Both the position numbers and the translations under genes were made by a program. Under the pieces are notes generated by a model that was given only the letters and a program-made list of their open reading frames with translations, was not told the origin of the DNA and searched no databases. Below, piece by piece: positions 7,840 through 34,140 of a stretch of 42,238 bases of DNA. The stretch comes from Natronorubrum thiooxidans (GTDB lineage: Archaea; Halobacteriota; Halobacteria; Halobacteriales; Natrialbaceae), in contig NZ_FTNR01000019.1 of the NCBI RefSeq assembly GCF_900156475.1, positions 1 to 42,238 of the forward strand, read 5' to 3'. Positions within the stretch are counted from its first letter, which is position 1. Every line of letters begins with the position of its first letter.

Positions 7840-8316
7840 TCACTCGAGGTGAACATTCAACACCGGGACCGGTGCAGTCCGGACGATTCGCTCGGTAAGG
7901 CCGGCCGGTAACCCCGTCCGACTCACGACGAGATCGGCATCCGTCGTGGCGACGTGCGACTGTAGTTCCGAGACGACAGTCCCGGAGACGACCGTCGTGA
8001 CGATCTCGTCGACCCCTGCGCTCGCTGCACGGGCTGCTGCGTCGTCGACTCTCTCGTGGGCTGTCGCTTCTCACTGATCGACGACGTCGCGTGACCAGAC
8101 GCTGGTTCCGAACATCGACGCAGTAACGACGGCCAGCAGATGAACGGTAGCCCCGTCGCGGGCCGGGAGGTCGGCCCCCCGTGTACCCTGCTCGAGTCCA
8201 TCTCCGCGCTGGTCGACGAACACGATGCAGTCGCTGTCGCCCACGAGGCTGCGATCAACTCGGCGCTGAACATCGGTGTCAGCGTCACCGCCGACGCACG
8301 GGTCGTGGTGCATCAT
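7840..8316 (-). pseudogene. UspA-type universal stress protein with in-frame stop and lost core
   Basis: Read on the minus strand, DGATVHLLAVVTASMFGTSVWSRDVVDQ and, in the same phase after a TGA at 8071-8073, EATAHERVDDAAARAASAGVDEIVTTVVSGTVV plus ATTDADLVV form a recognisable Usp domain. The C-terminal ATP-binding loop (normally GTHGRSG…) is degraded to SRTGLPAGLTERIV. The N-terminal strand (CIVFVDQRGDG…) is poorly conserved. One premature stop plus loss of the Walker-like loop mark this as a dead copy. The first ~40 codons overlap a better-looking frame on the opposite strand, so the true 5' boundary is unclear. Confidence 0.65.
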
Positions 8317-8439
8317 TCTCAACTCTCGACTGACAAACCGGTGTTCGACAGTGCCGAGGTGACGGCACAAACGGCACGAAAACTCGGTGCAAATTCGGCC
8401 CGTCTCGCAAAGGGAATCCCACTCAAGCCGATCGGCTGA
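8140..8439 (+). other. Unidentified coding-like frame, probably a gene fragment
   Basis: 99 codons ending in TARKLGANSARLAKGIPLKPIG. From about residue 25 onward codon third positions are GC-rich, and the helix-strand pattern (HDAVAVAHEAAINSALNIGVSV, then ADARVVVHHSQL) looks like real protein. The first ~25 residues read antisense to the stress-protein pseudogene and are probably not original. I do not recognise the family. Likely the 3' part of a gene truncated when this region was rearranged. Confidence 0.3.
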
Positions 8440-9814: not shown

Positions 9815-10357
9815 CTACTCGCCGATTTCTGATCCCGTCGCCGCTTCAGCGATCTCAGCAAGTGTGTTGGCAACTGCGTCTATTTCATCATCCAACCCGT
9901 CGACATCGTGTCGACTGGCCAAAAAGCGCGGATCGTTGTACGTCACGAAGACGTCACCATCGTCTTCCCAGACGAGCATCTTTTGTGGCAGGTCGATACC
10001 GATCGATCGACTGGCCTGCATGAGCGGCGTTCCGGCCTCCGGATTGCCGAAAACCAACAGCGTTGTCGGTGGGAGTGACTGATCGACTGACGCCGCATTT
10101 TCTGCGTGGTCGATCGTCGTTACGAGTGTGAGCGCCCGCTGCTCGATCGCTCGCTCGATGCGCGAGACCGTACTCGAAAATCTCGCGTTGCTCTCGAGTG
10201 TCTGGAGACCGTCGTCCTCTGAATCAGCCTCGTCGCCGGCAGCCCCGGTTTGCCCTCCCGCCGCTGCGGTCGCCGGGATCGTTGCGCCAGCCCCGATGCC
10301 GACGCCGAGTAGCTGTACGAACCGCCGTCTGGCTGTTTCGCCGTGTTCATCCGACAT
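9815..10357 (-). CDS. Exported DUF302 protein with twin-arginine-like signal
   Basis: 180 residues from ATG 10357. The N-terminus TARRRFVQLLGVGIGAGATIPATAAAGG has a run of arginines followed by a moderately hydrophobic segment and Ala-rich cleavage region, as in haloarchaeal Tat substrates. The DUF302 core follows: STVSRIERAIEQRALTLVTTIDH, TLLVFGNPEAGTPLM, IGIDLPQKMLVWEDDGDVFVTYNDP, LASRH. DUF302 domains occur in bacteria and archaea, often beside thiol or metal proteins; the biochemical role is unknown. Longer in-frame ATGs upstream would disrupt the signal, so 10357 is preferred. It is transcribed in the same direction as the Ser/Asp-rich gene upstream and is separated from it by a U-tract terminator. 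Confidence 0.85.
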   Translation of the reverse strand: MSDEHGETARRRFVQLLGVGIGAGATIPATAAAGGQTGAAGDEADSEDDGLQTLESNARFSSTVSRIERAIEQRALTLVTTIDHAENAASVDQSLPPTTLLVFGNPEAGTPLMQASRSIGIDLPQKMLVWEDDGDVFVTYNDPRFLASRHDVDGLDDEIDAVANTLAEIAEAATGSEIGE

Positions 10358-10537
10358 AGGCACGGGGGAGGATTCAGACCGTTGTAGAATTATCGCCCGT
10401 TCCACAATCCAACGAGAGCTTTCGGATCGAAACAGGATATTGACGACCTGCCGCTCGGATGCCAACTGTGTGGCGATGGTCACTTGTGGCCGAACGGTTC
10501 GACGCCGAGTGCAACCGCTGTGGGTATTCGACAGTGC

Positions 10538-10569
10538 AATAAAAAAGATCGGTCGGGCAACCTGTGTCG
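10538..10569 (-). terminator. U-tract terminator after the first Ser/Asp-rich gene
   Basis: Immediately after the stop the minus strand reads a GC-rich stretch and then GATCTTTTTTATTG, a run of six T residues at 10541-10546. T-runs of this kind are the usual archaeal intrinsic termination signal. The upstream pairing is weak. Confidence 0.5.
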
Positions 10570-12447
10570 TTAGCCGATCACGACGGACATCAGGGTGTCG
10601 ACTGCTGCGCCGATGTTCGAGGTCGCGCTGTCGCGTTCGATGTTGGCGGAGCTGTTGTCGATGTTCGAGTCAGAGCTGGAGCCGCCGTGGCCACAGTTGG
10701 AGTCATAGGACTCTTCGAAGCTACTGTCGTCGACTGAACTCTCGAAGCTGGCGCGCTCGGAGTCAGTGTCGGAGTCGCTGCGGGTGCTGTCCCGTTGGTC
10801 GACGTCATGGTCACTGTCGCTCTGATCGAGGCTGCTGTCGGACTCGCTGTCGTCGGCACTCTCGGAGCGGTCAGACTGGCTGGTGTCGGAGGCGCTGTCC
10901 TGCTCGCTGCTGGACTCGCTTTCGACGTCAGTGATGTCGGTCGTATCCGTACCAGTGTCACTCTCACTGTCAGTGTCGAGTGCGGAGTCGCTGCTCTCGC
11001 TGCGATCGTTCTCGCTCTCGTCGCGTTCGTCAGTGGTCGTGCTCTGGTCGTTCTCGCTGTAGCTGCGGTCACTCGAGACGTCGCTCTCGTCGTTTGCGCT
11101 GCTACTGCGTTCGGTGTCGTTGTCCGTACTGTCTCGGCTACTATCTTGTTGGTCACTCTGTGAGTCACTGCTCTCGCTTTGACTCTGGTCGCTGTCGGAA
11201 TCGCTGGTGGTCAGATCGTTGTCGGCGCTACTCGTGTCGCGGTCGCTCTCATCGAGGGAGCTCTCTGCGCCCTGACGGTCGCTCGTACTCGAGTCGAAGT
11301 CGGATTCGTCGAATGCGCTCGTGTCGCCCTCGCTGTCGGAACTTGAGCGGTCACTCTGACTGCGGTCGCTTTCGCTTGCGTCACTGTCGCTCTCGTCGAA
11401 TGCGCTCTCGCTTGCGCTACGGTCGCTTTCGCTCGCGTCACTGTCGCTCTGGACGCTCTCGTCGGCGTCGAAATCGGAGTCGCTGTCAGTCAGATCGAAG
11501 CTATCGCGATCTTGGGCACCACGGTCAACCGAGTCACTCTCGTCGTGTTCGGATGCACTGGCGCTCTCGGAACTGTCGCTTTCGTCGGCGTCGCTTTCAT
11601 CGGCGTCGCTTTCGTCGAGATCGCGCTCGTGGTCGCTCACGTCGCGTTCACTCGCATCGCGGTCCGATTCGTCGAAGGTGCTCTCGTCGAGGTCGCTTCG
11701 GCTGTCGCTCTCGTCGAGGGAACTCGAGTTGGACTCGCTCACGTCGACGTCAGTGTCGTCGTGGTCGATGTCGCTCGCACTCGAGTCGCGCTCGCTTGTG
11801 TCGGAGACGCTGTCGCTCTCCTCGGAGTCGCTCGAACTGTCGCTCGCACTCGAGTCAGCGTCGTCGGAGGCACTGTCGCTCGCGCTCGAGTCGGTCTCGC
11901 TGAGCGTGCTGTCCTGGTCGGACTCGCTGTCCTCGCGCTCGCTGACGTCACGGTCGAGGTCGCTTTCGTCCTCGTCGATTTCGACGTCCGTGTCGTCGAC
12001 CACGCTTTCGCTAACGTTGCGGTCGCTCTCGTCAATATCGCTGACGTCGCGCTCGCTGCTCGAGTCGCGCTGTTCGTTGCGGTCGTTCTCTTCGAACGAA
12101 CTCCCGTCGCGATCTGTGTCAAAGTCGCTCGAACTGTCGCTTGCGCTCTGGTCGAGGTCAGTTTCGTCTGCGTCACTCGAACTGTCGCTTGCGCTATCGC
12201 TCGCGCTCAGATCAGAGTCGCTCGAACTTTCTCGGAGATCGCTACTGGATCGATCCCGGTCGCTACTACTGTCACTCTCGCTTTCGTCCTCCTCGTCGAA
12301 CGAGGCGGTACTGTCGTCGGTGTGTTCGCCTTCATCACATCGATCGTTCACTTGCGTGTTGACGCCGGTCTGGGCTGCTGCCAGCCCGCCCGCTCCGGAC
12401 AACATCAAAAGGCCGATCATTGTGAGAATTGCTAGTTTCTGTAACAT
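10570..12447 (-). CDS. Secreted Ser/Asp-rich repeat protein 1, two cysteines
   Basis: 625 residues. A Sec-type signal (MLQKLAILTMIGLLMLSGAG, then LAAAQ) precedes about 540 residues composed almost only of Ser, Asp, Glu and Arg in loose units such as DESDADESD and ESDRSxSES, a sequence expected to be disordered and very negatively charged. Only two cysteines exist: C37 in DRCDEGE and C585 in SNCGHGG. The C-terminus ends in a short hydrophobic stretch, NIGAAVDTLMSVVIG. It aligns colinearly with the genes at 14141 and 16310, sharing RNEQRDSSSERDVSDIDESD and TLSETDSSASDSASD, so conservation goes beyond composition. Secretion to the cell surface as an acidic polymer or ion-binding coat is inference; bacterial Sdr stalks are a compositional analogue, not a homologue. 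ATG 12447 is chosen because the signal starts there. Confidence 0.82.
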   Translation of the reverse strand: MLQKLAILTMIGLLMLSGAGGLAAAQTGVNTQVNDRCDEGEHTDDSTASFDEEDESESDSSSDRDRSSSDLRESSSDSDLSASDSASDSSSDADETDLDQSASDSSSDFDTDRDGSSFEENDRNEQRDSSSERDVSDIDESDRNVSESVVDDTDVEIDEDESDLDRDVSEREDSESDQDSTLSETDSSASDSASDDADSSASDSSSDSEESDSVSDTSERDSSASDIDHDDTDVDVSESNSSSLDESDSRSDLDESTFDESDRDASERDVSDHERDLDESDADESDADESDSSESASASEHDESDSVDRGAQDRDSFDLTDSDSDFDADESVQSDSDASESDRSASESAFDESDSDASESDRSQSDRSSSDSEGDTSAFDESDFDSSTSDRQGAESSLDESDRDTSSADNDLTTSDSDSDQSQSESSDSQSDQQDSSRDSTDNDTERSSSANDESDVSSDRSYSENDQSTTTDERDESENDRSESSDSALDTDSESDTGTDTTDITDVESESSSEQDSASDTSQSDRSESADDSESDSSLDQSDSDHDVDQRDSTRSDSDTDSERASFESSVDDSSFEESYDSNCGHGGSSSDSNIDNSSANIERDSATSNIGAAVDTLMSVVIG

Positions 12448-12471
12448 TCGTTTCTCTAACCCTATACCGAA

Positions 12472-12553
12472 GGTCACTGCTCTCTCCGCCAGAGGGGATT
12501 AAAAACCGGAGACGAAGCCCTGGGGAGATACGGGTTGGATGGTGTCTCCTCGG
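12472..12553 (-). promoter_or_regulatory. Conserved promoter region of Ser/Asp-rich gene 1
   Basis: Upstream of ATG 12447, the block GGTCACTGC…CTCTCCG…(A)5…CGAAGCCC…GGAGATACGGGTT matches the block upstream of Ser/Asp-rich gene 2 at the same distance from the start. On the coding strand this reads CTTCGTC…GGTTTTTAATCCCC, where TTTTTAAT (12509-12516) is a plausible TATA box. A 5' leader of roughly 35 bases is implied. Confidence 0.5.
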
Positions 12554-12590
12554 GGATGATTGACCGACCAACGGCCTCCCTTCGAAGCTG

Positions 12591-12757
12591 CTATAGTAAC
12601 AACCGAGACGGACAGCTGTAGTCAATTACCGCCGATCACCAGAGACGGTCGGTGATCGGCGGTAAATCGTTACAGCAGACCGTATGAAACGATTGACACA
12701 CTGATCGCATAGTCGTCGTGCGATCAGATGTGCATTGACTTTCAGTGGCTACTATAG
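12591..12757. mobile_element. MITE-like palindromic element, copy 2 (167 bp)
   Basis: The element begins CTATAGTAAC and ends GGCTACTATAG. It is reversed relative to copy 1 at 6227-6313. Its right ~70 bases match copy 1's left part (CATTGACTTTCAGTGGCTA; GTCGTGCGATCAG). In addition it carries a perfect 14-bp stem, TACCGCCGATCACC (12627-12640) with its complement at 12651-12664 around a 10-base loop. No coding capacity. It lies in the gap between Ser/Asp-rich gene 1 and the DsbA-like gene. Confidence 0.68.
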
Positions 12758-12843
12758 TATGACTGTAGAACAGAACGTCGGCACCACTGAAATCGGAAAC
12801 ATGGAGCCGGGACCGCGAAACCGATCGAATCAATGAGAGCGAG

Positions 12844-13647
12844 TTACGACTCGAGCGCGGCTTCGATGGCGTCGGCGACCGCGTCGTCCTCGAGCGGATT
12901 GTCCACGATTTCGCCGTCGACGACGACCGTCGGCGTTCCGACGGCCCCCTCGCCGTCGCCGTGCTCCCAGTCCGCGGCGAGTGTCGGATAGTACGTGTCA
13001 TTCTCGAGTGCGGCCATCACGACGTCCGGATCGACGTCGAACTGCTCGGCGGTCGCGGCGAGCCCCTCGTCACTCCAGTCGTCGCTTTCCATAACCGCGT
13101 TTTTGTACTCGAAGAAGCGACCGTTCGGCTCCGCCTCGGTTCGCGTCTCGTCTTGAACTGCACGTGCGGCGTTCGCCATCGCAACCGACTCCTCGGTGGC
13201 CTTCACGGGAAAGTCGTAGTGGCGGTACTCGATCGCATCGGTGGTGATATACTCTTCCTCGAGAACCGGGAACACGTCTTCCTGGAACTGGTAGCAGAAC
13301 GGACAGCCAAGGTCTTCGTACACATCGACCGTCACGGTCCCCTCTCCGAGGGCCGGGACGGTAAGTTGACGGTCCTCGTCGACGTCCTCGAGCTCTGCCG
13401 GCAGGGTGGCCGAAGTGTTGGCCGGCCCACCAGCACCGAAGAGAATCCACAGGTAGCCGAGCGCGAACAACACGAGTATCACACTGACGCCTGCGTAGAG
13501 GGCCACGTTCCGCTTTTTCGGTGGTCCGGCGACCTGTTTGGCTCGTCGTCTATCGATCGCCGTCAGTTCGTCCGAATGGACCCGCTCGAGGTGGCCCTCG
13601 TACGCCTCATCAGGAACAGTCTCTCCACAGTAGGTACAGCGTGTCAT
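12844..13647 (-). CDS. Membrane-anchored DsbA-like thiol oxidoreductase with N-terminal zinc finger
   Basis: 267 residues. C4-x2-C7 and H19/H24 (CTYCGE…GHLERVH) form a C2H2-type finger on the cytoplasmic side. A membrane helix spans about 48-70. The outside part is a DsbA/thioredoxin-fold domain with active site C115-P-F-C118 and cis-proline loop VGTPTVVVDGE. This layout would place the thiol chemistry at the cell surface, acting on exported cysteines. Its neighbours on the same strand are exported proteins with exactly two cysteines, which makes them plausible substrates (inference). The same finger plus anchor recurs at 18403-19035 with a different outer domain. Upstream the minus strand carries TTCGACCACCCTTGATAC, also found before the 18403 gene in near-identical form. 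Confidence 0.9.
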   Translation of the reverse strand: MTRCTYCGETVPDEAYEGHLERVHSDELTAIDRRRAKQVAGPPKKRNVALYAGVSVILVLFALGYLWILFGAGGPANTSATLPAELEDVDEDRQLTVPALGEGTVTVDVYEDLGCPFCYQFQEDVFPVLEEEYITTDAIEYRHYDFPVKATEESVAMANAARAVQDETRTEAEPNGRFFEYKNAVMESDDWSDEGLAATAEQFDVDPDVVMAALENDTYYPTLAADWEHGDGEGAVGTPTVVVDGEIVDNPLEDDAVADAIEAALES

Positions 13648-13718
13648 CGGTGGATATACCGAACAGTCGGCCGGGGCGTATCAAGGGTGGTCGAAGAAAC
13701 GGAGCAGGTATGAGCAGA

Positions 13719-13892
13719 TCAGGCGGATTCGTTTCGATCGGGGTCAGCGCGATCACGGCGTCTTTTCAACTCTCTGGCGATCACGTGTGCGTATCCCGGG
13801 ACGATACAGCCCGTTTTGCAGAACTGTTCCCAGGCTATCTGCTCGTCGTCAGGAGAGGGATTCGTGGATCGCGGCTGGTCGTTTCGGTTCAT
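13719..13892 (-). CDS. Small hypothetical protein with a CxxxC pair
   Basis: 57 codons from ATG 13892 to TGA 13719. The sequence runs from MNRNDQPRSTNPSPDDEQIA through WEQFCKTGCIVPGYAHVI to a basic helix ARELKRRRDRADPDR. Cysteines at 25 and 29. It is short and basic for a haloarchaeon. It lies 72 bases upstream of the DsbA-like gene on the same strand. No family recognised; it could be a small regulator or a chance frame. Confidence 0.4.
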   Translation of the reverse strand: MNRNDQPRSTNPSPDDEQIAWEQFCKTGCIVPGYAHVIARELKRRRDRADPDRNESA

Positions 13893-14098
13893 GAGTGGGC
13901 TGTCGATGCGGCTTCGACCGCTCGACTGAAGGCCGTACCACCGACTGGACCGCGTCGAATACTAAACACCGGTCGAAGCACCGGAGTCCGTCGAGAACAA
14001 AGACCCCTATTCGACGACACAGCCACCGCAGACCAAGTGTGTTGAGTCAGGGCTTTGAGACGGTCGGTTTCGAACGCAGTCGCTCTCAGCGCGTTGCC

Positions 14099-14120
14099 CA
14101 TTAATAAAAACCGGGTGTGG
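14099..14120 (-). terminator. U-tract terminator after Ser/Asp-rich gene 2
   Basis: About 20 bases past the stop, the minus strand reads CACCCGGTTTTTATTAATGG, with five T residues (14106-14110) followed by an AT-rich stretch. Upstream of 13892 back to this point (about 13893-14098) I see no gene. Confidence 0.5.
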
Positions 14121-14140
14121 TGTGATCGCGTCTCGCGTTC

Positions 14141-16003
14141 CTAGCCAACGATGGCGGACACGAGGCTGCCAACAGCTGCGCCGATGTTCGAGGTCGCGCT
14201 GTCGCGTTCGATGCCGTCGGAGCCGCTGTCGGTGTTCGAGTTCGAGCCACCGTGGCCGCAGTTGGAGTCGTAGGACTCCTCGAAGCTACTCTCGTCGCCC
14301 GAACTCTCGAAGCTGGAGCGCTCGGAGTCGGTGTCGGAGTCGCTACGGGTGCTGTCCCGCTGGTCGACGTCGTGGTCGCTGTCGCTCTGTTCGAAGCTGC
14401 TGTCGGACGCGCTGTCGGCAGCACTCTCGGAGCGGTCGGACTCGCTGACGTCAGCTGCGCTGTCCTGCTCGCTGCTGGACTCGCTTTCGACGTCAGTGAT
14501 GTCGGTCGTGTCCGTACCAGTGTCACTCTCGCTTTCGGTGTCGAGTACGGACTCGCTGGCCGCGCTGCGGTCGCTTTCGTCGATGTCGCTTTCGTCGGTG
14601 TTGGTGCTCTGGTCGTCCTCGCTGTAGCTGCGGTCGCTCGAGACGTCGTTCTCGTCGAACTCGCTGCTACTGCGTTCGTTATCGTTGTCGGTCGTGTCTA
14701 AGCTGGTGTCTTGTTGATTACTCTGGGCTTCGCTGCTGTCGCTCGTGCTCTCGTCGCTGTTGGACGTGCGTTCGGTCCGGTCGCTGTCGGCGGTACTCGC
14801 GTCGTGGTCGCTCTCGTCGAGGGAGCTCTCGGAACCCTGACGGTCGCTCTGGCTCGCGTCGAAGCTACTCTCGTCGCTCTCGCTGCGGTCGCTGTCAACG
14901 TCGGAACTAGAGCGATCGCTCTGGGAGGCGTCGGTCTCGAGTTCCTCACGGTCGCTCTCGTCAAAGGCGCTCTCGCTGACACTGCGGTCGCTCTCGCTCG
15001 CATCGAAGCTATTCTCGTCGCTCTCGCTCGCGTCGAAGTCAGAGCCACTGTCGGTGCGGTCGAAGCTGTCGCGGTCGTTCGCGCCACGGTCGATTTCGTC
15101 ACTCTCGTCGATCGAGGAGTCACTAGAACTCTCGGAGCTCTCGCTTTCGTCGCTTGCGCTTTCGTCGCTGTCGCTTTCATCGAGGTCGCGGTCGCTGTCG
15201 CTGACGTCACGTGCGCTCTCGGAGCGTTCGCTTTCGTCGAGATCACTCTCGTCGAGGTCGCTTCGGCTGTCGCTCTCGTCTCTGGTGCTCGAGTCGGACT
15301 CGCTCACGTCGATATCGGAATCATCGTGATCGACGACGTCCTCGCTGCGGTCGCTTGCACTCTCGTCGGAGGCGCTGTCGCTCTCCGCGAGGTCGCTCTC
15401 GCTCTCGCTTGCACTCGAGTCAGCGTTGTCGGAGGCACTGTCGCTCGCACTCGAGTCGGTCTCGCTGAGCGTGCTGTCGCGGTCGGCCTCGCTGTCCTCG
15501 CGCTCGCTGACGTTGCGGTCGAGATCGCTCTCGTCCTCCTCGATTTCGACGTCCGTGTCGTCGATTTCGGTCTCGCTAACGTTGCGGTCGCTCTCGTCGA
15601 TATCGCTGACGTCGCGCTCGCTGCTCGAGTCGCGCTGTTCATTGCGGTCGTTCACTTCCAGGGAACTCCCGTCGCGGTCGGCCTCGGCGTCGCTCGCGCT
15701 GTCGCGCTCGCTAACGTCGCGGTCGCTCTCGTCGACGTCGGTCGTGCTGTCACTCGCACTGTCGCTTGCACTCACGTCCGAATCGCTGGAACTCTCGCGA
15801 AGATCGCTGTTGGATCGCTCCCGGTCGGTACTACTGTCGCTTTCGTGCTCTTCGTCTTCGTCGAGCGACGACGTACTGTCGTCGACGGTTTCGCCTTCGT
15901 CACACCGATCGGTCACCTGTGCTCCTGCGACACCGCTGGCACCAGCGGCACCGGCGAGCAGTAGCAGTCCGATCATTGTGAGAACTGTTAGTTTCTGTCT
16001 CAT
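14141..16003 (-). CDS. Secreted Ser/Asp-rich repeat protein 2, two cysteines
   Basis: 620 residues from ATG 16003. The signal MRQKLTVLTMIGLLLLAGAA matches that of protein 1. The mature part starts VTDRCDEGETVDDSTSSLDE and continues as a highly charged Ser/Asp/Glu/Arg region with no other complex sequence. The only cysteines are C34 and C582 (SNCGHGG). The end, ERDSATSNIGAAVGSLVSAIVG, also mirrors protein 1. Block identity with protein 1 is high at both ends and in the RNEQRDSSSERDVSDIDESDR block, and drifts in the low-complexity middle, as expected after tandem duplication. It has its own promoter and terminator. A shorter start inside the signal is unlikely; upstream in-frame codons to 16105 would run through the conserved promoter block. 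Confidence 0.82.
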   Translation of the reverse strand: MRQKLTVLTMIGLLLLAGAAGASGVAGAQVTDRCDEGETVDDSTSSLDEDEEHESDSSTDRERSNSDLRESSSDSDVSASDSASDSTTDVDESDRDVSERDSASDAEADRDGSSLEVNDRNEQRDSSSERDVSDIDESDRNVSETEIDDTDVEIEEDESDLDRNVSEREDSEADRDSTLSETDSSASDSASDNADSSASESESDLAESDSASDESASDRSEDVVDHDDSDIDVSESDSSTRDESDSRSDLDESDLDESERSESARDVSDSDRDLDESDSDESASDESESSESSSDSSIDESDEIDRGANDRDSFDRTDSGSDFDASESDENSFDASESDRSVSESAFDESDREELETDASQSDRSSSDVDSDRSESDESSFDASQSDRQGSESSLDESDHDASTADSDRTERTSNSDESTSDSSEAQSNQQDTSLDTTDNDNERSSSEFDENDVSSDRSYSEDDQSTNTDESDIDESDRSAASESVLDTESESDTGTDTTDITDVESESSSEQDSAADVSESDRSESAADSASDSSFEQSDSDHDVDQRDSTRSDSDTDSERSSFESSGDESSFEESYDSNCGHGGSNSNTDSGSDGIERDSATSNIGAAVGSLVSAIVG

Positions 16004-16026
16004 TCTTTGCTCGAACCTACGTGGTA

Positions 16027-16110
16027 GGTCACTGCACTCTCCGGGGGACGAGGTCAAAAAGCGACGACGAAACCCCGGGAAGATACGGGGTAGATAGGGT
16101 CTCACTGCGC
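16027..16110 (-). promoter_or_regulatory. Conserved promoter region of Ser/Asp-rich gene 2
   Basis: GGTCACTGC starts 24 bases from ATG 16003, followed by CTCTCCG, GTCAAAAAGCGACGACGAA and GGGAAGATACGGGGT, matching the block before gene 1. A looser version (CAAAAGGTGGCGACGAAGG, GGGAAGGAT) lies upstream of gene 3 near 18270-18295. On the coding strand the shared core is TTCGTCGTCGCTTTTTGACC. Shared control of the three genes is inference. Confidence 0.5.
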
Positions 16111-16261
16111 GGATCGGGCCACGTACGGGCCGTCGTCCGTGTGCAAACGGGACGGGCTTGCCTCTCGAGTGAGACTATCAGACAGGATGACCAACGCGCT
16201 CGCAGGCAGATCGCGGGCACACTGGCACCAACTGACAGTCGTCTGCTGATCAACACGCCGA

Positions 16262-16290
16262 TCAAAAAACCGCGTTCGCGGGCCGAACGG
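16262..16290 (-). terminator. Hairpin plus U-tract terminator after Ser/Asp-rich gene 3
   Basis: The minus strand has a short perfect stem CCGCG-TT-CGCGG (16270-16281) followed directly by TTTTTTGATC (six T residues, 16264-16269). This is the clearest terminator of the three genes. The rest of 16111-16261 holds nothing I can identify. Confidence 0.6.
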
Positions 16291-16309
16291 CGTTCGTTCG
16301 GTGTTCGTC

Positions 16310-18187
16310 TCACTCGAGTTTGCTGACGTCGACGTCGAAGCTGCCGTCGTCGTTTTCGATGAGGATGCCTTTTTCCTCGAGTTCGGCAGGACTATCTCCG
16401 GTGACGATCAGGCGTTCGGAGATCGTTTCACAGTCCGAATCGGTCGTCTGCTCGCGTTCAGTCTGGTCGCGTTCGTTCTGCACGCGCTCGCTCTCGGAGT
16501 CGGTCTCGGAGTCGCTGCGATCGCTGTCTCGAGTCTCGAGGTCGCGTTCGCTCTCACTGAGGTCACGCTGGCTTTCGCGTTCGCTCTCGTCGGCGCGCTC
16601 GCTGCGGTCGCGTTCGCTCTCGTCACGGCTGCTGTCGCGGTCGCTGATCCGTTCACGTTCGGTGTCGGTGTCTTCGCGCGTGTCCGTGCCGGTATCGCTC
16701 TCGCTCACAGCATCGCGTTCGGAGTCCGTCTGCTCGCTGCGGTCGCGTTCGCTCTCGTCGCGTTCGTCGGAGTACGTACTGCCGTCGCGCTCGCTTGCGG
16801 TTCGGTCGCTGTCGCTCCCACGGTCGGTTCGATCGCTCTCCGTGCGCTCGGTGTCGTTGTCAGTGGTATCGAGCGTTCTGTCGCGCTGGTCGCTTGCGGA
16901 TTCGCTGGCCCCGCGGTCGAACTCGTTGGCGTCGAAGTCGCTGCGGGAACTGTCACGTTCCGTAGCGCTCGCGTCCCGTTCGCTCTCCTCGAGACCCTGT
17001 TCGCTTCCCTGTCGTGTCTCCTCGTGATCGTCGAGAACCGACTCGAACGTCTCACTGAGGAACGCCTCACTGGTGAATTCGTTGCGGTCGCGATCGGATC
17101 GATCCGCCTCGCTCTCGTCGCGTTCGTGCTCTGCGCTGTCCGATTCGCTCGCCTCGCTGTCGGCCTCACTCGTCTGCTCGCTCGAGTCGGACTCGTCGCT
17201 TGCAGCTTGGCTGTCGGCGTCAGTTCGTTCGTGTGCGTCTCCGTCGTTGCCACCGGACTGGTCTGCGTCGGTCCGATCCGACTCACTCTCGCTGTCGGAG
17301 CGCTCAGTCTCGTTGCTCGCGCTCGTGTCACGTTCGCCCTCGCGCTCGTCACTGTCGCTCGCGCTGGCGTCGCGTTCGCTCACGTCGGAGCTGTGCTCTT
17401 CGCTGTCGCGGTCGTCGGCGTCGCGCTCGCTGTCGGACGTTTCGACGTCGCTGCGGTCACGATCGCTCGTGTCACGCACCGCATCGTCGTAGTCGACACC
17501 GAACTGGCTACGATCGCGTTCGCTCTCATCGGCAGTGCTGGCGCTCTCGTCGACGTCGCTCGCGCGTTCGCTCGTGCCGCTTTCGTGTTCGTCCGCCGCA
17601 CTGTCGCTCGCACTCGAGTCGGTCTCGCTGTGCGTGCTGTCGGCGTTCGACTCGTCGACATCGCTTTGTGTAGTTTCGTTCTCGCTCTCACGTTCACTCT
17701 CATCGCTCTCGACGTCCGTATCGTCGATTTCGGTCTCGCTGACCGTGCGATCGCTCTCGTCGACGTCGGTGACGTCACGTTCGCTACTTTCGTCGCGCTG
17801 TTCGTCGCGATCGTTCACTTCGGACTCGCTGCCGTCACGATCGTACTCGCTGTCGTGACTGCTGTCGCGTTCACTCGTATCGCGGTCGCTCTCGTCGAGT
17901 GCACTCGAGCTGTCGCGTTCGGTGTCGCGTTCGCTGACATCGCGGTCGCGTTCGTTCTCCCGGTGATCGGCGTTCGATCGATCCCGATCACTCTCACTTT
18001 CACTCTCGCTTTCTTCGAGTTCACTCGTCACGTCGAGGTTTTCGTCGAGATGTTCCGTCACGTCACACCGTTCATCGTCCAGCGAGTAGACGACGGTCTG
18101 GTCGTTGGTGACACCGCCGTTTGCGGCGGCAACACCCCCGAGGACCAGAATCACGGCTAACGCAACGACACCAAGTCTTTTTGTCAT
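16310..18187 (-). CDS. Secreted Ser/Asp/Glu/Arg-rich repeat protein 3, two cysteines
   Basis: 625 residues from ATG 18187 (M6 of a longer frame beginning at 18202; M6 starts the signal MTKRLGVVALAVILVLGGVA). The body resembles proteins 1 and 2 but is richer in Glu-Arg-Asp units (SERDTERDSS, ESERDRSE). Colinear blocks remain: DRDEQRDESSERDVTDVDESD, SETEIDDTDVE, HSETDSSASDSA and SDTGTD. Only two cysteines, C41 (DERCDVTE) and C586 (SDCETISE), at the same relative ends. The C-terminus differs: ERLIVTGDSPAELEEKGILIENDDGSFDVDVSKLE looks like a small folded module rather than a hydrophobic tail. This is the oldest or most diverged member of the family. Surface location is inferred from the signal. 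Confidence 0.82.
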   Translation of the reverse strand: MTKRLGVVALAVILVLGGVAAANGGVTNDQTVVYSLDDERCDVTEHLDENLDVTSELEESESESESDRDRSNADHRENERDRDVSERDTERDSSSALDESDRDTSERDSSHDSEYDRDGSESEVNDRDEQRDESSERDVTDVDESDRTVSETEIDDTDVESDESERESENETTQSDVDESNADSTHSETDSSASDSAADEHESGTSERASDVDESASTADESERDRSQFGVDYDDAVRDTSDRDRSDVETSDSERDADDRDSEEHSSDVSERDASASDSDEREGERDTSASNETERSDSESESDRTDADQSGGNDGDAHERTDADSQAASDESDSSEQTSEADSEASESDSAEHERDESEADRSDRDRNEFTSEAFLSETFESVLDDHEETRQGSEQGLEESERDASATERDSSRSDFDANEFDRGASESASDQRDRTLDTTDNDTERTESDRTDRGSDSDRTASERDGSTYSDERDESERDRSEQTDSERDAVSESDTGTDTREDTDTERERISDRDSSRDESERDRSERADESERESQRDLSESERDLETRDSDRSDSETDSESERVQNERDQTEREQTTDSDCETISERLIVTGDSPAELEEKGILIENDDGSFDVDVSKLE

Positions 18188-18402
18188 GTTTTCATCGATC
18201 ATCTAGTATATCCGAATGGATCGGCTCGGACAGAGCGCTAGATCATCGGATCTTCGACGGTTCCGTTCAAAAGGTGGCGACGAAGGGTCGGGAAGGATCG
18301 CGGTCAACACGGGCCGTTCGGAGTCACGAAGCCGACAGCGACCGCACTCGAGATCTGCCGATCGTCCTCGCTCACGCAGTCGATCCGTCGTCACCACGTC
18401 AC

Positions 18403-19035
18403 TTACTCACCCGAGGTGGCGACGACTTCAACGTGATCTCCATCGCCATTGGCCGCGTCGTCGACCGATTCGACGCCCTCGAGTACGTACGTCTGTGGGT
18501 CGACGTCCTCGCCGTCGACAGTGACCGAGACGGTGTCGCCGTCGGCCTCGTCGAACGTCTGGCCGTCGACGGTGAACTGCTCTGCAGTGAGATCCATGCC
18601 GAGCGTCTCGAGTGCGTACTCGAGAGTCACATCCGAACAGTGAGCGTGCCAGATGGCGGCATCGTCGTGGCCGTGGAAGTGGAAACAGTCGTCACGTTCG
18701 ATGTGCTCCGGGTCGTCGAACGCGACGACGGTATCGTCGTACTGGACGGTTATCGTCCCGTGTTCGTGGATCGGAGCCGATGGATCGGGCTCTACGACGG
18801 CGGACGTGTCAATCGAGCCGCCGCTAAAGAATATCGCAGCGTATCCGACCACGAAGACGGCGAGCAAGAGCCCAGCGCCCACGTACACCGCTCGCTCCCG
18901 ATGAGACGATTCGTCAGCCGTCGCTCCGACACGCCGCCGATCGAGAGGCGTCAACTCCTCGGCGTGTGCTCGCTCGAGGTGAGCATCGTACGCGTCGTCC
19001 GAAACGGGTTCGCCACAGTAGGGACACGTCGTCAT
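18403..19035 (-). CDS. Membrane-anchored His/Cys-rich protein with N-terminal zinc finger
   Basis: 210 residues. The first 70 mirror the DsbA-like protein at 12844: finger C4-x2-C7…H19…H24, a basic linker, and a membrane helix (49-70). The outer domain is different. IHEHGTITV (H90, H92) and DDCFHFHGHDDAAIWHAHC (C117, H119, H121, H123, H130, H132, C133) give a dense His/Cys cluster able to bind copper or zinc. A beta-rich segment follows (FTVDGQTFDEADGDTVSVTVDGEDV). It is not a thioredoxin. A role delivering or sensing metal at the surface beside the acidic two-cysteine proteins is inference. The upstream TTCGACCACGCTTCATAC motif matches that of the DsbA-like gene. Confidence 0.85.
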   Translation of the reverse strand: MTTCPYCGEPVSDDAYDAHLERAHAEELTPLDRRRVGATADESSHRERAVYVGAGLLLAVFVVGYAAIFFSGGSIDTSAVVEPDPSAPIHEHGTITVQYDDTVVAFDDPEHIERDDCFHFHGHDDAAIWHAHCSDVTLEYALETLGMDLTAEQFTVDGQTFDEADGDTVSVTVDGEDVDPQTYVLEGVESVDDAANGDGDHVEVVATSGE

Positions 19036-19349
19036 CTTGGGCGAGGTACACCTCGACGAGGTATGAAGCGTGGTCGAAAAACAGCGGACATTCGACGACA
19101 GTCACCGTGATCCGATCAGCGACGGGTTTTTCGGGCGTTCGAGGCCGCCACTCTATTCTCGAGGTCGGGAGGAAGTAATCCTCGAGACGAGACCACGTAC
19201 TACAGCACGTCGGCTCCTGGCTCGATCGGGAGCTACTCGTCCGTGTCCACTCCTCGAGGGGAAGCCCGAAACATTCGCTACGACAACAGTCCGTCTCAAA
19301 GAGGTTCCACGACCTCGCTCAACGAAGTGTGTCGATGGCGAGGCGTTTA
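19036..19349. other. Gene-free stretch with one shared promoter motif
   Basis: 314 bases. The part next to 19035 carries, on the minus strand, GTTTTTCGACCACGCTTCATACC, a near copy of the sequence upstream of the DsbA-like gene. The remainder shows no coding-like frame on either strand. Confidence 0.5.
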
Positions 19350-19994
19350 TCATTCGTCGTCTCCCTCACCGTCACTTTCGCCCTCGCTCTCGTCGCTGTC
19401 GCTTTCACCCTCGCTCTCGTCGCCGTCGCTTTCGCCCTCGCTCTCGTCGCCGTCGCTTTCACCCTCGCTCTCGTCGCCGTCGCTTTCACCCTCGCTCTCG
19501 TCGCTGTCGCCTTCACCGTCAGTATTTTCCTCTGTGGTATCGTCTTCGTCGTCCGGTTCGGTCGATTCGAACGTCCCTGCGATACGAGACAGCAACTCGG
19601 GCCACTCGAGGTCCTCCTCGAGGTATGCGTCGACCCACTCGGTTTCGATCGTAAAGTAATCGAGAACGTCGTCGTTGTTCGGATCGTACGCAGTCGCGTT
19701 GAGAAACGCCATTTCCAGTCCGCCTTCGATAGCGGTCGTGTAGCCGTCCGTTACTAACTCGAGCTCGGTGGCGACGTTGTCGTCCGTCGTGCCAGTCGCA
19801 TTGTACCCCAGTTCGAGTCCATTATCAACAGGCTCGAGTTCGATCTGTTCGAACCCACGGTCCTCGAGCGTGACCTGGAACGCTTCGATAAGATCGGATT
19901 CCTCGACTGCTGGTGTGTCTCTCCCAGAGCCGAGACTTGTACAGCCTGCAACCGCCACGCTTGCAACCGCCGTCAGTAGTGTTCGACGTCTCAT
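19350..19994 (-). CDS. Lipoprotein with C-terminal DESEGESDG tandem repeats
   Basis: 214 residues from ATG 19994; MRRRTLLTAVASVAVAGC has a twin-arginine-like start and a lipobox (VAGC), so the mature protein would be lipid-anchored at the residue after VAG. A globular acidic domain follows, LIEAFQVTLEDRGFEQIELEPV… through DDVLDYFTIETEWVDAYLEEDLEWPELLSRIAGTF, and then an Asp/Glu/Ser tail of five or more nine-residue units. The globular family is not recognised. Like its three downstream neighbours, it exposes a Ser/acidic repeat at the surface, but without cysteines apart from the lipidated one. An ATG seven codons earlier (20015) is possible. Confidence 0.82.
   Translation of the reverse strand: MRRRTLLTAVASVAVAGCTSLGSGRDTPAVEESDLIEAFQVTLEDRGFEQIELEPVDNGLELGYNATGTTDDNVATELELVTDGYTTAIEGGLEMAFLNATAYDPNNDDVLDYFTIETEWVDAYLEEDLEWPELLSRIAGTFESTEPDDEDDTTEENTDGEGDSDESEGESDGDESEGESDGDESEGESDGDESEGESDSDESEGESDGEGDDE
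19381..19515 (-). repeat. Five tandem 27-bp coding repeats
   Basis: Units start at 19381, 19408, 19435, 19462 and 19489. They differ only at single bases (GCTGTC/GCCGTC; TTTCA/TTTCG/CTTCA) and each encodes nine residues of the DESEGESDG type. Array length should vary between strains by slippage or recombination. The regular spacing is protein repeat, not CRISPR: there are no spacers. Confidence 0.9.
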
Positions 19995-20323
19995 ACTCAC
20001 CGGTGAGCGCGGCATCGTTGTCAACACGCACCAAATAATAGCCACGGATGGGGACGATACGGGGCGAATGGGGAGTCGAAAAGTCAGTCGACCCACGAAC
20101 GCGTCGTCCGACACGTCTGCGCCGTTTGTCACCGGAACAGTTGCGGGACAGTCGCCTCGAGAGGAGTTCACCTTGTCGTGCTGCAGTGCGTCTCTCGCCC
20201 AATCGAACGTGATTTTCTCGATACGCACCGTTCTTTCGACTGGGATTTTTGAGCGCCATGCTCATTCTACTGAACCACTGATGCGAGACACGAAATTAAA
20301 AATCGATCTCATCGGAACATAAT
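19995..20323. other. Intergenic region with promoter before the small RHH-like gene
   Basis: 329 bases between the lipoprotein and the next plus-strand gene. GAAATTAAAAATCG near 20291-20304 is a likely TATA box about 27 bases before ATG 20324. No other feature seen. Confidence 0.5.
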
Positions 20324-20714: not shown

Positions 20715-23225
20715 TCATTCAAATGTCGTCCGCGTCATTTCTTCGGTCGTTTGTTCGAAGTAGTCAGTGACACGAATCGTAATTTCGTACTCGTCTCCCT
20801 CGGCTCCGTTCCGGTCTCGAAGCGACTCCTCACCCGTTGTTTCGTCACCACGGGCCATCGAACTCGCAGCGTCGATAACAGCACTCTCATCTGGCCTGCG
20901 CAACTCGAGTTCGACGCCGTCTAGTTCCCCGCCATCGTCCGAAACTGCCCACTCGACGCGGATTTCGGGAGTCCCGAGGAAATCGTCGGGCGTAGTATCG
21001 AACCTGTCGATGGTTGGCGGCGGCGAGCGCTCATCGAGGGTTGCACGCGCTGTCTCTTCCGTCGTTTCTCCTTCCGTATCGGTCACGATGAGCGTTACAT
21101 CGTAGTCTTCGCCAGCACCCTCGAGTCGGTCGCTGTTTCGAACAGTGAGAACGCCGTTTTCCTCGCCAGCATCGACTTCGGCGGTTACCTCGTGTAACAC
21201 CTCGTCCTCATCAGCGTAGCGAAGACGAGCGGTGACCAGTTCGATCGCCCCGTCGTCGACGGAGGCAGCCCACCGAACCCGACACCGCACGAACTGTCCG
21301 GTGCTGTCGTCCGTGAGCTCGAGGCGATCGATCTCCGGGAGTCCCGGTTCCGGATCGGTGACGAACGAAACGGGATCACCAGTTTCGGTCGCTTCGTCGG
21401 TCTCACAGAGTGCTTCGACCTCGTACTCGGTTTCGGGAGCGAGGCCGGACAGCTCCGCGTCGAACTCGCCGACCGCGTCCAGCGTCTGTGGCTCCGTTTC
21501 CTTCGAATCCGCCACACTCGACGATCGGTCGGCCGTGGCGTTCGCGTCAGCGTCAGCGGACGCCGACCGAACCAGAAACGACACGTCGGCGGTCTCGGCG
21601 TCACCCAGTCCTGCCAGCACGCCGTTGAGCTGTACCGTCCGATGGTCGTGAACCTCGACATCGCTCGTTTCGACGGCGAGCGAGTCAAGACCAGTCGCGA
21701 ACGACACGACGGTTCCAGCGATAGGGCCCTCGTCGGCGGGGTCGACGACTGCGCGGACATCGTACTCGGTGTCTGGATCGAGTGCATCGATCTGGTGCTG
21801 GAATTCACCGCTCGAGGTGAGCGTCTCTGATTCGGTCTCGGTCCAGTCGTCACCGCCGGCTTCGCGCCATCGAAAGCGGGCATCAACAGCGTCGGCATCC
21901 CCAAGATCGCGGAGCGTTCCGCGGAACGTGGCCGTGCTGGCACGAACGCCCGTGGGAGTCTCGGTGGTGACGAGTTCGATCTCCTCGAGGGCCGTGACCG
22001 CGTTGAGCAGCCCGTATCCCTGTTCAGACTCGTCCAGCCCGAGATCATCGGCGCTCTTGCGGAGCAGGCCACGAACGCCGCCGGGGTCGTCGTAGTTGTC
22101 CGTGTCCTCCGCGTTCGGCATTCCCTGTCCCATCAGTTGAGCGGCAACACCAGCGACGTGCGGTGTCGACATCGACGTGCCGTCGAGATACGTATATTCG
22201 TCACCCGGGCTCGTAGAGAGGATTGCCTCACCGGGGGCAACGAGTTCGAGTTCGTCGCCGGTAACGGACCAACTCGGAACCTCGTCCCGATCGTTGGTCG
22301 CGCCGACGGCGATACATTGCTCGTACTTGGCTGGATAATCAATCTGACCCACTGGCCCAGTGTTTCCCGCCGCAGCGACAACAAGGGAACCGTTCTGATA
22401 CGCATACTCGAGTGCGTCCTCGAGAACCTGCGCTGGCTCGCTACCGCCGAGGCTCAAACTGATGACGTCGACGTCATTGTCGGTACACCATTCGATTCCG
22501 GCAGCAATGTCCGAATCGTAACCGGAGCCATCACCGGCAAGTATTTTGACCGAACAGAGGTCCGTCGCTGGCGAGACGCCGATCACGCCGATATCGTTGT
22601 CGAGTGCGGCTACCGTCCCTGCACAATGGGTGCCGTGACCGCTGTCGTCGTCCCACTCGTTCTCACACGTCGAATCGTTGCAGTCGGCGAACGCGATACC
22701 GTCTGCTACCTCGAGCGTCTCGTGTTCCGGGTCGATACCGGAGTCGAGAATCGCGACACGTCCCCGGTTGTCCGTGTCTCCCTGTTCGCGAAACTCGGTC
22801 GCGCCGATGCGTTCGATACCCCACGGTAACTGCTGTTCGTCGGGCTGAACATCGGTGGCCTCGAGTGAGGTTCGTTCCAGCGTCGGTGATCGACGGACGT
22901 GGTCCGGTTCGACGTACCGAACGTCTGCTCGGTCAGCTAGTTCTCGACGGGCAGCGTCCGAAAACGTCCCGACCATGGCCCCACCATTGGCGACACTCAG
23001 CGTTCGATAAACGGTCGTCGCTTCACGTGAAACATTCGCCGAAACGGTTCCTGGTTCCATCCCGACGACATACCGATCCACGTCGTCTTCGTCCCCCATA
23101 TCCGTGCCTGCGGCCGAACCGACGCCAAGTAACCCGACAAAGGCTGTGCCGATTCTGGCCAAGATGCCCCGCCGCGATCGGTGTCGACCGGTAATCAGTG
23201 CAGCGACCAGTACGGACTGGAGCAT
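20715..23225 (-). CDS. Secreted subtilisin-family (S8) serine protease with C-terminal beta-sandwich repeats
   Basis: 836 residues from ATG 23225. The N-terminus HRSRRGILARIGTAFVGLLG resembles a twin-arginine signal. A propeptide with an inhibitor-like segment (DRYVVGMEPG…ADRADVRYVEPDHV) is followed by the catalytic domain: D161 (VAILDSGID), H197 (SGHGTHCAGT), N288 (AAGN) and S351 (GTSMSTPHVAG). The last ~400 residues contain fibronectin-III-like repeats (DPDTEYDVRAVV, APETEYEVEALC, TPEIRVEWAVSDDGG). It is expected to be exported folded and to degrade extracellular protein, like haloarchaeal halolysins, with an unusually long repeat tail. The frame stays open 98 codons further upstream (to 23519), but a strong TATA box lies inside that stretch and no in-frame ATG, GTG or TTG lies between it and 23225. 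Confidence 0.9.
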   Translation of the reverse strand: MLQSVLVAALITGRHRSRRGILARIGTAFVGLLGVGSAAGTDMGDEDDVDRYVVGMEPGTVSANVSREATTVYRTLSVANGGAMVGTFSDAARRELADRADVRYVEPDHVRRSPTLERTSLEATDVQPDEQQLPWGIERIGATEFREQGDTDNRGRVAILDSGIDPEHETLEVADGIAFADCNDSTCENEWDDDSGHGTHCAGTVAALDNDIGVIGVSPATDLCSVKILAGDGSGYDSDIAAGIEWCTDNDVDVISLSLGGSEPAQVLEDALEYAYQNGSLVVAAAGNTGPVGQIDYPAKYEQCIAVGATNDRDEVPSWSVTGDELELVAPGEAILSTSPGDEYTYLDGTSMSTPHVAGVAAQLMGQGMPNAEDTDNYDDPGGVRGLLRKSADDLGLDESEQGYGLLNAVTALEEIELVTTETPTGVRASTATFRGTLRDLGDADAVDARFRWREAGGDDWTETESETLTSSGEFQHQIDALDPDTEYDVRAVVDPADEGPIAGTVVSFATGLDSLAVETSDVEVHDHRTVQLNGVLAGLGDAETADVSFLVRSASADADANATADRSSSVADSKETEPQTLDAVGEFDAELSGLAPETEYEVEALCETDEATETGDPVSFVTDPEPGLPEIDRLELTDDSTGQFVRCRVRWAASVDDGAIELVTARLRYADEDEVLHEVTAEVDAGEENGVLTVRNSDRLEGAGEDYDVTLIVTDTEGETTEETARATLDERSPPPTIDRFDTTPDDFLGTPEIRVEWAVSDDGGELDGVELELRRPDESAVIDAASSMARGDETTGEESLRDRNGAEGDEYEITIRVTDYFEQTTEEMTRTTFE

Positions 23226-23324
23226 GGGTCCGAGACCGATACGGATTCGACCGGCCGTTTCACAGGCAAAAACACGATTCCGGATAGCGTCCCAAACACG
23301 GACCGGCGTCTGAGACCGTGTTTT

Positions 23325-23334
23325 CTTATAAAAA
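23325..23334 (-). promoter_or_regulatory. TATA box of the protease gene
   Basis: The minus strand reads TTTTTATAAG, close to the haloarchaeal consensus, about 100 bases before ATG 23225. It implies transcription starting near 23300 with a leader of roughly 75 bases. The rest of 23226-23674 has no other gene I can support. Confidence 0.55.
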
Positions 23335-23674
23335 CAAGAGGCTGTTAGCCGGTCAATCGTGGTTGCGAAGAGCCCTGTCGGTTCTCCCGCCGCCGCGTCG
23401 CGACTATCGTCGTTTGTAGTCGTATCGGGAAGGGTCTTCTCCGTTCGGGGTGTTTCGTCTCCGTTCGAGTGGGAGGTTCGCCATTCGGTCATATCGTTCT
23501 TCACTCCGGGGTCATTCACCCGCTATCTAAATCCCAATGGCTGTATCTGTAGCATCCGTCGGATCTCGAGACCGATACTAATAGCTATTTATATTGGGTA
23601 CGGATAGCGAACCTCGAGAACGGAGTACACGTGTCGAAAAGAAATGAAATCCGGTTCGGCGTGTGTTCCGTACG

Positions 23675-31748: not shown

Positions 31749-31862
31749 GTACACGATATCAGACGCGCATCACTAATGAAACACCGAGTTACGAGGGGGT
31801 AAGCCGGTTCGAGGTTGCGCCTCCGTGCTCGCTCTCGGTCTGCTGACGCGAGTGCTCGGAGA

Positions 31863-32279
31863 TCAGGCGGACGCGATCAGTCGCTGGTGCTCGGGTTTCA
31901 TACACCGATCCTGGACGACACGCAGGCCGGCTGCTTCCGCTCGAGCGACCGCCTCGTCGTCGTGAATGCCGAGTTGGAGCCAAATAACGTCGACGTCGTC
32001 CCGCTCGAGAACCTCGTCGACGATTCCTGCCACTTCGGGGCTCGGCCGAAACACGTCGACGATGTCGATCTCCTCCTCGATATCTGAGAGCGAATCGTAG
32101 GCGGGCCGTCCCAGGAGTTCGTCTGCGTTGGGATTGACTGGAATGACCTCATAGCCCTGTTCCTGGAGGTACGTTGGAATCCCGTGGGCAGCTTTCCTGG
32201 GTGTCGACGAGCAGCCGACGACAGCGACCGTTTTCTTTTCGAGTACGGTTCTGACTTCGGCATCTGTTTCGATGGGCAT
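31863..32279 (-). CDS. CoA-binding domain protein (YccU-like)
   Basis: 138 residues from ATG 32279. The Rossmann-like CoA_binding pattern is evident: VLEKKTVAVVGCSSTPRKAAHGIPTYLQEQGYEVIPVNPN, then PEVAGIVDEVLERDDVDVIWLQLGIHDDEAVARAEAAGLRVVQDRCMKPEH. Small single-domain members bind CoA but have no defined enzymatic role; they may store or shield CoA disulfides, which would fit the redox neighbourhood. Upstream codons in frame to 32414 are non-haloarchaeal, so 32279 is the start. Confidence 0.9.
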   Translation of the reverse strand: MPIETDAEVRTVLEKKTVAVVGCSSTPRKAAHGIPTYLQEQGYEVIPVNPNADELLGRPAYDSLSDIEEEIDIVDVFRPSPEVAGIVDEVLERDDVDVIWLQLGIHDDEAVARAEAAGLRVVQDRCMKPEHQRLIASA

Positions 32280-32453
32280 ACCATCTGTAGAATAGCAACT
32301 GTCAAAAGACCACCGTCGTCTCCAGCCACAGTTGCCATCGCTGGCGTCGTCTTCGAATGACTGGACAGCGACGACATAGATCTTGGTCTGGCAACGCAAC
32401 TGCACACTGGCCACAGCACAGACTTGGACAGTGAGTTACTCGAGGGCGGTGGC

Positions 32454-33485: not shown

Positions 33486-33491
33486 TCTATG

Positions 33492-33652
33492 GTTACCTAT
33501 AGTAACTCAATTACGACCGGTAGGTTATAATGCTCAGCCAACCGTCTCGTCACCCGGTTACTGGGTCGTAACGACGTTCGAACGTCGGTGAACACGCGAG
33601 TACTGGAGCGAGATTTCAAGTCACTAAACGTAACTAGAGTACAATACGTAAC
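33492..33652. promoter_or_regulatory. Cluster of GTTAC/GTAAC operators in the TrxR-like/hxlR intergenic region
   Basis: GTTAC-N5-GTAAC (33492-33506) overlaps the 5' end of the TrxR-like gene, and GTTAC-N6-GTAAC (33557-33572) lies mid-region. Beside the second is a perfect 16-bp palindrome CGACGTTCGAACGTCG (33572-33587). Two direct ACGTAAC copies (33628-33634, 33646-33652) precede the hxlR TATA box ACTATATATCC. The repeated half-site in both promoters suggests one dimeric regulator, most simply the HxlR protein controlling its own gene and the reductase. Confidence 0.5.
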
Positions 33653-33682
33653 TATATATCCATTCAGTACGAGTACGAATGC

Positions 33683-34057: not shown

Positions 34058-34140
34058 CCAGATGGGGTGAGGAACTCGTAACCCCATTACTCGTCCGTTC
34101 GCGTGAGCTTTTATCAATCCCGACTGTACTGGGACGTGTA

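Follow-up and report, generated by a model that had tools for sequence, protein, structure and literature searches.

Ser/Asp-rich exported proteins of Natronorubrum thiooxidans and related haloarchaea have mirror-matched halves and may fold as long disulfide-closed hairpins

The 42,238-nucleotide contig NZ_FTNR01000019.1 of the haloarchaeon Natronorubrum thiooxidans (assembly GCF_900156475.1), called the window here, carries three genes for Ser/Asp-rich exported proteins (SD proteins A, B and C), next to a gene for a His-rich membrane protein and several other neighbours (Table 1). A sequence-only reading of this DNA had described three exported Ser/Asp/Glu-rich proteins with two cysteines each in the mature part. 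This description was confirmed and the genes lie where it had placed them; they are the only SD genes in this genome. Proteins A and B are 73% identical, and with C the identity was 45%. Ser makes up about 29-31% of A and B and 20% of C, Lys, Pro and Trp are nearly absent, and the net charge of the core between the cysteines is -135 to -190. The K/(K+R) ratio was 0.9% in the SD proteins in comparison to 13.6% in the neighbouring genes. Calcium loops (DxDxDG) and RTX motifs were essentially absent from the SD proteins, A, B and C had no match in Pfam or NCBIfam, and a sequence search of the PDB found no relatives. As the ratio of nonsynonymous to synonymous substitution rates (dN/dS) was ~0.2-0.4 against nearer homologues and conserved Ser columns were preserved across both Ser codon families, we regard A, B and C as real genes. 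Antisense to the gene of protein C there is a 619-codon open frame (window 16301-18160, plus strand), which is most likely a by-product of biased codons and no gene.

In total 36 complete SD proteins were collected from 20 loci, and these fall into two types, AB (like A and B) and C. Exactly two cysteines outside the signal region were found in all 36, so that the two-Cys feature holds across the family, far from what chance would give. Cysteines are numbered here from the likely starts; Cys46/591 of protein C are the residues that the sequence-only reading numbered C41/C586 from a later start. Between the two cysteines lie 547 residues in A, 547 in B and 544 in C. The Cys-Cys spacing was exactly 547 in 20 of the 21 AB proteins, at ungapped identities of 42-94%, and the core holds at this length while the AB tail after the second Cys ranges between 26 and 77 residues. 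In the C type the spacing was 540-550, with one protein at 503, and most of the insertions and deletions were located at core positions 270-290, which is the midpoint.

To compare the two halves, the core was indexed 0-548 from Cys1 to Cys2 and each position i was set against position 548-i. The acidic profile was found to be anticorrelated between i and 548-i (z -11.5, with a spread of 1.45 over all mirror centres), and acid was matched with Ser (+7.9) and with Arg (+4.6), in each case at one register only, that in which Cys1 and Cys2 face each other. This residue-by-residue matching of the halves goes beyond the sequence-only reading. When the proteins were taken singly, the best of ~800 registers was exactly the Cys1-Cys2 register in every one of the 36 (core 505 to 552; z -5.9 to -10.6). 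Protein B gave a z of -8.1, whereas shuffled, first-order Markov and second-order Markov versions of it (60 sequences each) never fell below -4.5. Among 500 acidic open reading frames (ORFs) of all fetched DNA, those beyond z -3.8 were SD proteins or pieces thereof.

The matching follows a simple code. Relative to expectation, facing acidic residues were rare in AB proteins (D:D 0.05x, D:E 0.12x, E:E 0.15x), and D:S (2.2x) and E:R (3.4x) pairs were enriched; the trend in C-type proteins agrees with this. Asp had Ser opposite in 69% and Arg had Glu opposite in 60%, and the net charge of a mirrored pair, or rung, was -1 in 65%, 0 in 31% and -2 in 2%. The matching was seen at both parities (r -0.68 and -0.72 for odd and even positions) and extended from beside the cysteines to the midpoint, where the AB sequence is DERDEVDRG-E-NDRDSF and the turn position is occupied by Gly and Asn. 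In C types, with conserved ends YSLDDERC and CETISERLIV in protein C, the pairing goes on beyond the cysteines (R:E, E:T, D:I/V, D:S, L:E, T:R, Y:L, V:I/L, V:V, T:T), and this outer part resembles a beta hairpin at its base. At the level of sequence, all residues can be paired across the strands in a single register, as a two-stranded antiparallel ribbon would require.

The two halves also change together. In a set of 16 non-redundant AB proteins the acid states of mirrored columns showed negative covariation at offset 0 (z -5.1 relative to other offsets). One acid per rung was preserved in 783 of 880 two-sided changes (89%); at the other offsets tested the share was 26-75%. The changes were counted over pairs of sequences and do not represent independent events. 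The commonest double changes were exchanges of D:S and E:R, in both orientations. Conservation itself was mirrored, with a correlation of smoothed entropy of 0.49 at offset 0 and, over offsets, a mean of 0.05 (standard deviation 0.17).

Within the central 360 residues the acid/Ser pattern recurred with a period of 2.33-2.44 residues, and in the AB consensus this periodicity exceeded Markov nulls up to order 4. For a ribbon twisted by t degrees per residue, the period of a side fixed in space is 360/(180-t), so that a period of 2.33-2.41 corresponds to a twist of 25-31 degrees per residue. Isolated ribbons usually twist within this range, and a twisted beta ribbon would fit the SD core. Two other patterns were tried and rejected: parallel or internal repeats, as there was no strong long-lag self-similarity, and a pure pentad repeat, for which a lag-5 signal was present but the 2.3-2.4-residue period fitted the lag pattern better.

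SD proteins were found in 17 genomes of 6 genera among the 125 same-family genomes searched. In a class-wide sample of 391 genomes there were no SD proteins outside the family; decayed remnants occurred in one further genome of the family (G017). These remnants (L080 and L138, G017:C1:545345-545952) contain stop codons and have lost most of the core, so the SD locus is apparently decaying or being lost in another genus. The named hosts are Natronorubrum bangense, N. halalkaliphilum and N. texcoconense, Natronolimnohabitans innermongolicus, and Natrialba chahannaoensis, N. hulunbeirensis and strain SSL1; further hosts are Natronococcus amylolyticus, N. pandeyae and another Natronococcus, a Halostagnicola strain and two metagenome-assembled genomes. 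Apart from the Natrialba species and N. bangense, most of the named host species are soda-lake alkaliphiles. For the Natrialba species and N. bangense, haloalkaliphily is indicated by references listed in PMC6423904. Several genomes of the same genera have no SD genes, and these genes are therefore an accessory trait. In N. bangense the SD locus is on an 828 kb plasmid, with every SD gene annotated as 'hypothetical protein'. No SD relatives were detected on viral contigs, which leaves a viral origin unsupported, and a search of the literature on haloarchaeal Ser/Asp-rich exported proteins found no description of the family.

Table 1. Features of the SD locus in the window
Feature	Position	Strand	Details
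SD protein A (AB type), 625 aa	10570..12447	minus	Cys37 12337-12339; Cys585 10693-10695; putative midpoint turn ~11515-11517; mirror z -9.1
SD protein B (AB type), 620 aa	14141..16003	minus	Signal sequence; Cys34 (15902-15904); arm 1; putative turn ~aa 308 (15080-15082); arm 2; Cys582 (14258-14260); tail with short hydrophobic helix; mirror z -8.1 at the Cys-Cys register
SD protein C (C type), 630 aa	16310..18202	minus	Cys46 18065-18067; Cys591 16430-16432; putative midpoint turn ~17249-17251; mirror z -7.8
His-rich partner (c1)	18403..19035	minus	C2H2 finger (cytoplasmic); transmembrane helix aa 43-69; extracytoplasmic beta-grasp domain aa 84-210; motif CFHFH..WHAHC with Cys117 18685-18687 and Cys133 18637-18639
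S8 subtilase	20715..23519	minus	Identified by Pfam; frequent neighbour of SD loci
Finger-transmembrane-DsbA-like protein	12844..13647	minus	Between A and B; a local gene outside the conserved set
DUF302 protein	9815..10483	minus	Local, not a conserved member
Ser/acidic lipoprotein	19350..20228	minus	Two of the 19 other SD loci have relatives

The His-rich zinc-finger-transmembrane protein is a conserved partner of the SD proteins. At each of the 15 loci that have a C-type gene, the partner gene was within ~0.8 kb of an SD gene, and it was also near the sole AB gene of locus L035. The His-rich family, built of a C2H2 finger, a transmembrane (TM) helix and an outer beta-grasp domain, is widespread in haloarchaea, with a match in 90 of 292 genomes. 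The model of the outer domain had a predicted local distance difference test score (pLDDT) of 91. In VIA-align its structural matches included 3u7z (Z 7.3, root-mean-square deviation 3.1, 89 aligned) and transcobalamins (Z 6-7), and the beta-grasp matches overall (3u7z, the transcobalamin beta domain, ThiS and SAMP1) were at Z 4-7, all below 8. A plasmid homologue of the partner carries a MoaD/ThiS annotation. Based on the model, the outer domain is predicted to be a MoaD/ThiS-like beta-grasp fold.

What sets the SD-linked copies of this protein apart is a pair of cysteines. The outer motif CFHFH(8-9)WHxHC was found in 16 of 16 SD-linked copies, whereas none of 33 unlinked finger-bearing homologues, second copies of the same organisms included, had Cys at either position. 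Such second, cysteine-free His-rich beta-grasp copies were seen at L096, L098, L100 and L105, and the outer domains of the family are sometimes arranged in tandem. The SD-linked copies form one clade (support 100/100), indicating that the Cys pair was gained once and then retained. In the model a short hairpin (strands 118-120 and 129-134) lies between the two cysteines, which may for this reason bond each other.

Other genes recur near SD loci: an S8 subtilase within 8 kb at 8 of the 20 loci (this one included), a DUF4352 lipoprotein in the vicinity of 14 loci and BAT-type regulators in the vicinity of 18. As BAT genes are common in haloarchaea, the subtilase and the regulators were not used as partners. 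The identities given earlier to the DsbA-like protein (Thioredoxin_4, E 3e-23) and the DUF302 protein (Pfam E 4e-23) were upheld, as was the C2H2-finger-TM module common to the DsbA-like and His-rich proteins (39% identity). The DUF302 protein also matched the C-terminal part of the NCBIfam model for CrcB (fluoride channel), under the cut-off. Elsewhere in the window, the genes at 30312-36931 (dihydrolipoyl-dehydrogenase-like, helix-turn-helix and DsrE-like) also adjoin the SD locus in N. bangense (L087), and a block larger than the SD locus may be conserved with that species. An isolated ORF at 8140-8439 (plus strand) resembles a diol/glycerol dehydratase medium subunit (Pfam E 3e-18); no dehydratase partner for it was seen among the ORFs examined.

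Based on the mirror matching, an antiparallel zipped architecture of the SD proteins appears very probable. We further consider it probable that this architecture is a single chain, folded as a disulfide-closed, two-stranded antiparallel hairpin of ~274 rungs. The two arms of ~273 residues between the cysteines would zip together rung by rung, nearly every rung having no more than one acidic residue, with Ser/Thr (mostly Asp:Ser) or Arg (mostly Glu:Arg) on the other side, and the chain would reverse at the exact midpoint (DRG-x-NDR in AB proteins). The zones of raised conservation at AB core positions ~80-100 (NDRDEQRD..) and 448-468 (SESDTGTD..) would then face each other, perhaps as a kink or a binding site. 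The two cysteines would be the rung at the open end, most likely joined by an intramolecular disulfide that locks the hairpin. It had been proposed that the end cysteines either close a loop, link molecules into a chain or attach to a surface partner; they do belong together, and since the pairing register sets Cys1 exactly opposite Cys2 in 36 of 36 proteins, the loop is favoured.

The signal sequence and the C-terminal hydrophobic tail both adjoin the Cys pair, and we therefore infer that the open end is at the membrane and the tip points outward. As a twisted beta ribbon, the ladder would extend up to ~90 nm (274 x 0.33 nm). Such a complete structure, a single-chain hairpin of ~274 rungs with an Asp:Ser/Glu:Arg code that covaries like a nucleic-acid stem, a disulfide at the base and the form of a rigid polyanionic hair of up to ~90 nm, seems on balance likely. 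The membrane-bound His/Cys beta-grasp partner could act on or near the Cys pair, by redox exchange, as a tether or in metal delivery. The charged exported coat suggested by the sequence-only reading is plausible. In alkaline brine the hairs might hold cations (protons, Na+ or scarce divalent ions) at the haloalkaliphile cell surface; this function at high pH is proposed tentatively, from host distribution and composition and by analogy.

Several points weigh against the single-chain hairpin. AlphaFold2 prediction on an SD protein, with 31 sequences, gave a pLDDT of 37 and no strands; the method may be blind here given the shallow and biased alignment, and it still lends the hairpin no support. 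The PDB sequence search gave no solved structure among SD relatives, and to our knowledge isolated two-stranded ribbons of this length have no precedent. The periodicity, clear in AB types, was weaker in single C types, and the link of the partner Cys pair to the SD proteins rests on one event. Unmatched deletions in one arm were found in some SD proteins (47 aa in L041, 8292-10052; 12 aa in L035, 6616-8466; 7 aa in L052, 7611-9491), which should entail a bulge or a shift of the inner register; these proteins offer a natural test of the model. Moreover, an antiparallel homodimer, or a ladder of chains in which Cys1 of one copy bonds Cys2 of the next and the rungs are intermolecular, would produce an identical mirror register and identical covariation, and three paralogues of near-equal length per locus would suit such an assembly. 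However, the exact midpoint has Gly and Asn and collects most of the C-type length changes, as a turn would, and a hairpin needs no partner chain, so we regard intermolecular pairing of this kind as unlikely. A heterodimer of AB and C proteins is a weaker alternative, as AB and C proteins of one genome matched each other less well (r -0.51) than the halves of one protein did (r -0.56).

The composition, the lack of a Pfam domain and the low AlphaFold pLDDT would all agree with a disordered Ser/Asp polyelectrolyte, of the kind seen in Sdr stalks or dentin phosphoprotein, with its length and pattern preserved for other reasons. Such disorder gives no reason for a residue-exact register in 36 of 36 proteins, for the D:S/E:R code or for the compensatory changes, nor for a core that is constant next to a variable tail, and it is very unlikely. 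The mirror signal could also be an inverted repeat of the gene or a hairpin of its mRNA seen through translation, since reverse complements of GAC runs might read TCG (Ser) or CGT (Arg) in other frames. However, nucleotide complementarity was just ~32-36%, was shared by registers other than the Cys-Cys one and was largely retained on synonymous codon shuffling, and Asp is encoded by GAC but Ser mostly by AGC. Base complementarity at the mirror register was not beyond what the protein imposes, and this explanation, extremely improbable, was rejected. The sequence-only reading had instead joined the SD, DsbA-like, His-rich, DUF302 and lipoprotein genes into one system in which the DsbA-like protein serves the end cysteines. 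The DsbA-like gene does sit between A and B here, but a DsbA domain was found at 0 of 19 other SD loci, DUF302 likewise at 0 of 19, and the finger-TM-DsbA fusion occurred in this genome only (among the 125 family genomes and an order-wide sample), DsbA homologues elsewhere having no finger. Without conserved co-occurrence the DsbA-like gene is refuted as a partner, and oxidation by this gene set is highly improbable; general DsbA homologues elsewhere in many SD genomes could still oxidise the end cysteines. The idea of a thiol- or metal-type partner survives in the His-rich protein, which co-occurs with SD genes and bears the Cys pair in SD-linked copies alone. Concerning function, an adhesion or biofilm stalk as in SasG/Aap would be an alternative to cation holding. 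Long rigid surface rods of bacteria serve adhesion (PMC4458895, PMC8201768), and the subtilase and BAT-type regulators would be suitable neighbours. On the other hand, the predicted tip lacks a head domain like that of adhesins, and SD length is fixed whereas the Periscope stalk length varies (PMC8201768), so that a role in adhesion is possible though doubtful.

If the single-chain hairpin is true, a 'hypothetical', AlphaFold-disordered, low-complexity protein would be an ordered giant hairpin, readable by mirror complementarity like RNA stems. Zipped proteins hidden elsewhere could then be looked for with a simple test, the design of long protein ribbons would gain a natural pairing code, and there would be a concrete candidate for the way in which archaea of soda lakes make their surface charged at high pH. 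We know of no precedent for a zipped two-stranded hairpin architecture of this kind.

Among known systems, the Sdr/Clf stalks and dentin phosphoprotein are also Ser/Asp-rich exported polyanions, and they are repetitive, disordered and of variable length; we know of no mirror pairing or terminal Cys pair in them. The short tandem SD repeats and length variation of the Sdr/Clf type were absent from the SD proteins, which have a fixed 547 core, a pair code and no strong long-lag repeat. The G5-E rods of SasG/Aap and the Periscope proteins resemble the SD proteins in being extended, beta-rich surface rods (PMC4458895, PMC8201768). They consist of tandem folded domains in variable copy number, whereas an SD protein is one unrepeated archaeal chain of fixed length with complementary halves and two end cysteines; Pfam and NCBIfam detected no such domain (G5/E, SHIRT or Rib) in SD proteins, which also had no PDB sequence relatives and no long internal repeats. 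The ultralong CDR-H3 (third heavy-chain complementarity-determining region) of bovine antibodies has a solvent-exposed antiparallel ribbon stalk comparable to the proposed one (PMC8602281), but it measures little over 50 residues in total, while the SD core has ~547, is polyanionic and is without a knob. The H+-capacitor segment of alkaliphile cytochrome c and the acidic wall polymers of alkaliphilic bacilli have been proposed to hold protons at high pH (PMC12457358); like the SD proteins these are acidic, hydroxyl-rich surface material, with unrelated sequence and architecture, and the likeness in function is by analogy only. The partner, finally, shares its predicted fold with MoaD/ThiS, SAMP and the transcobalamin beta domain (DUF4430-like), to which it adds a finger, a TM helix and His clusters; a Cys pair is a further addition, confined to the SD-linked copies.

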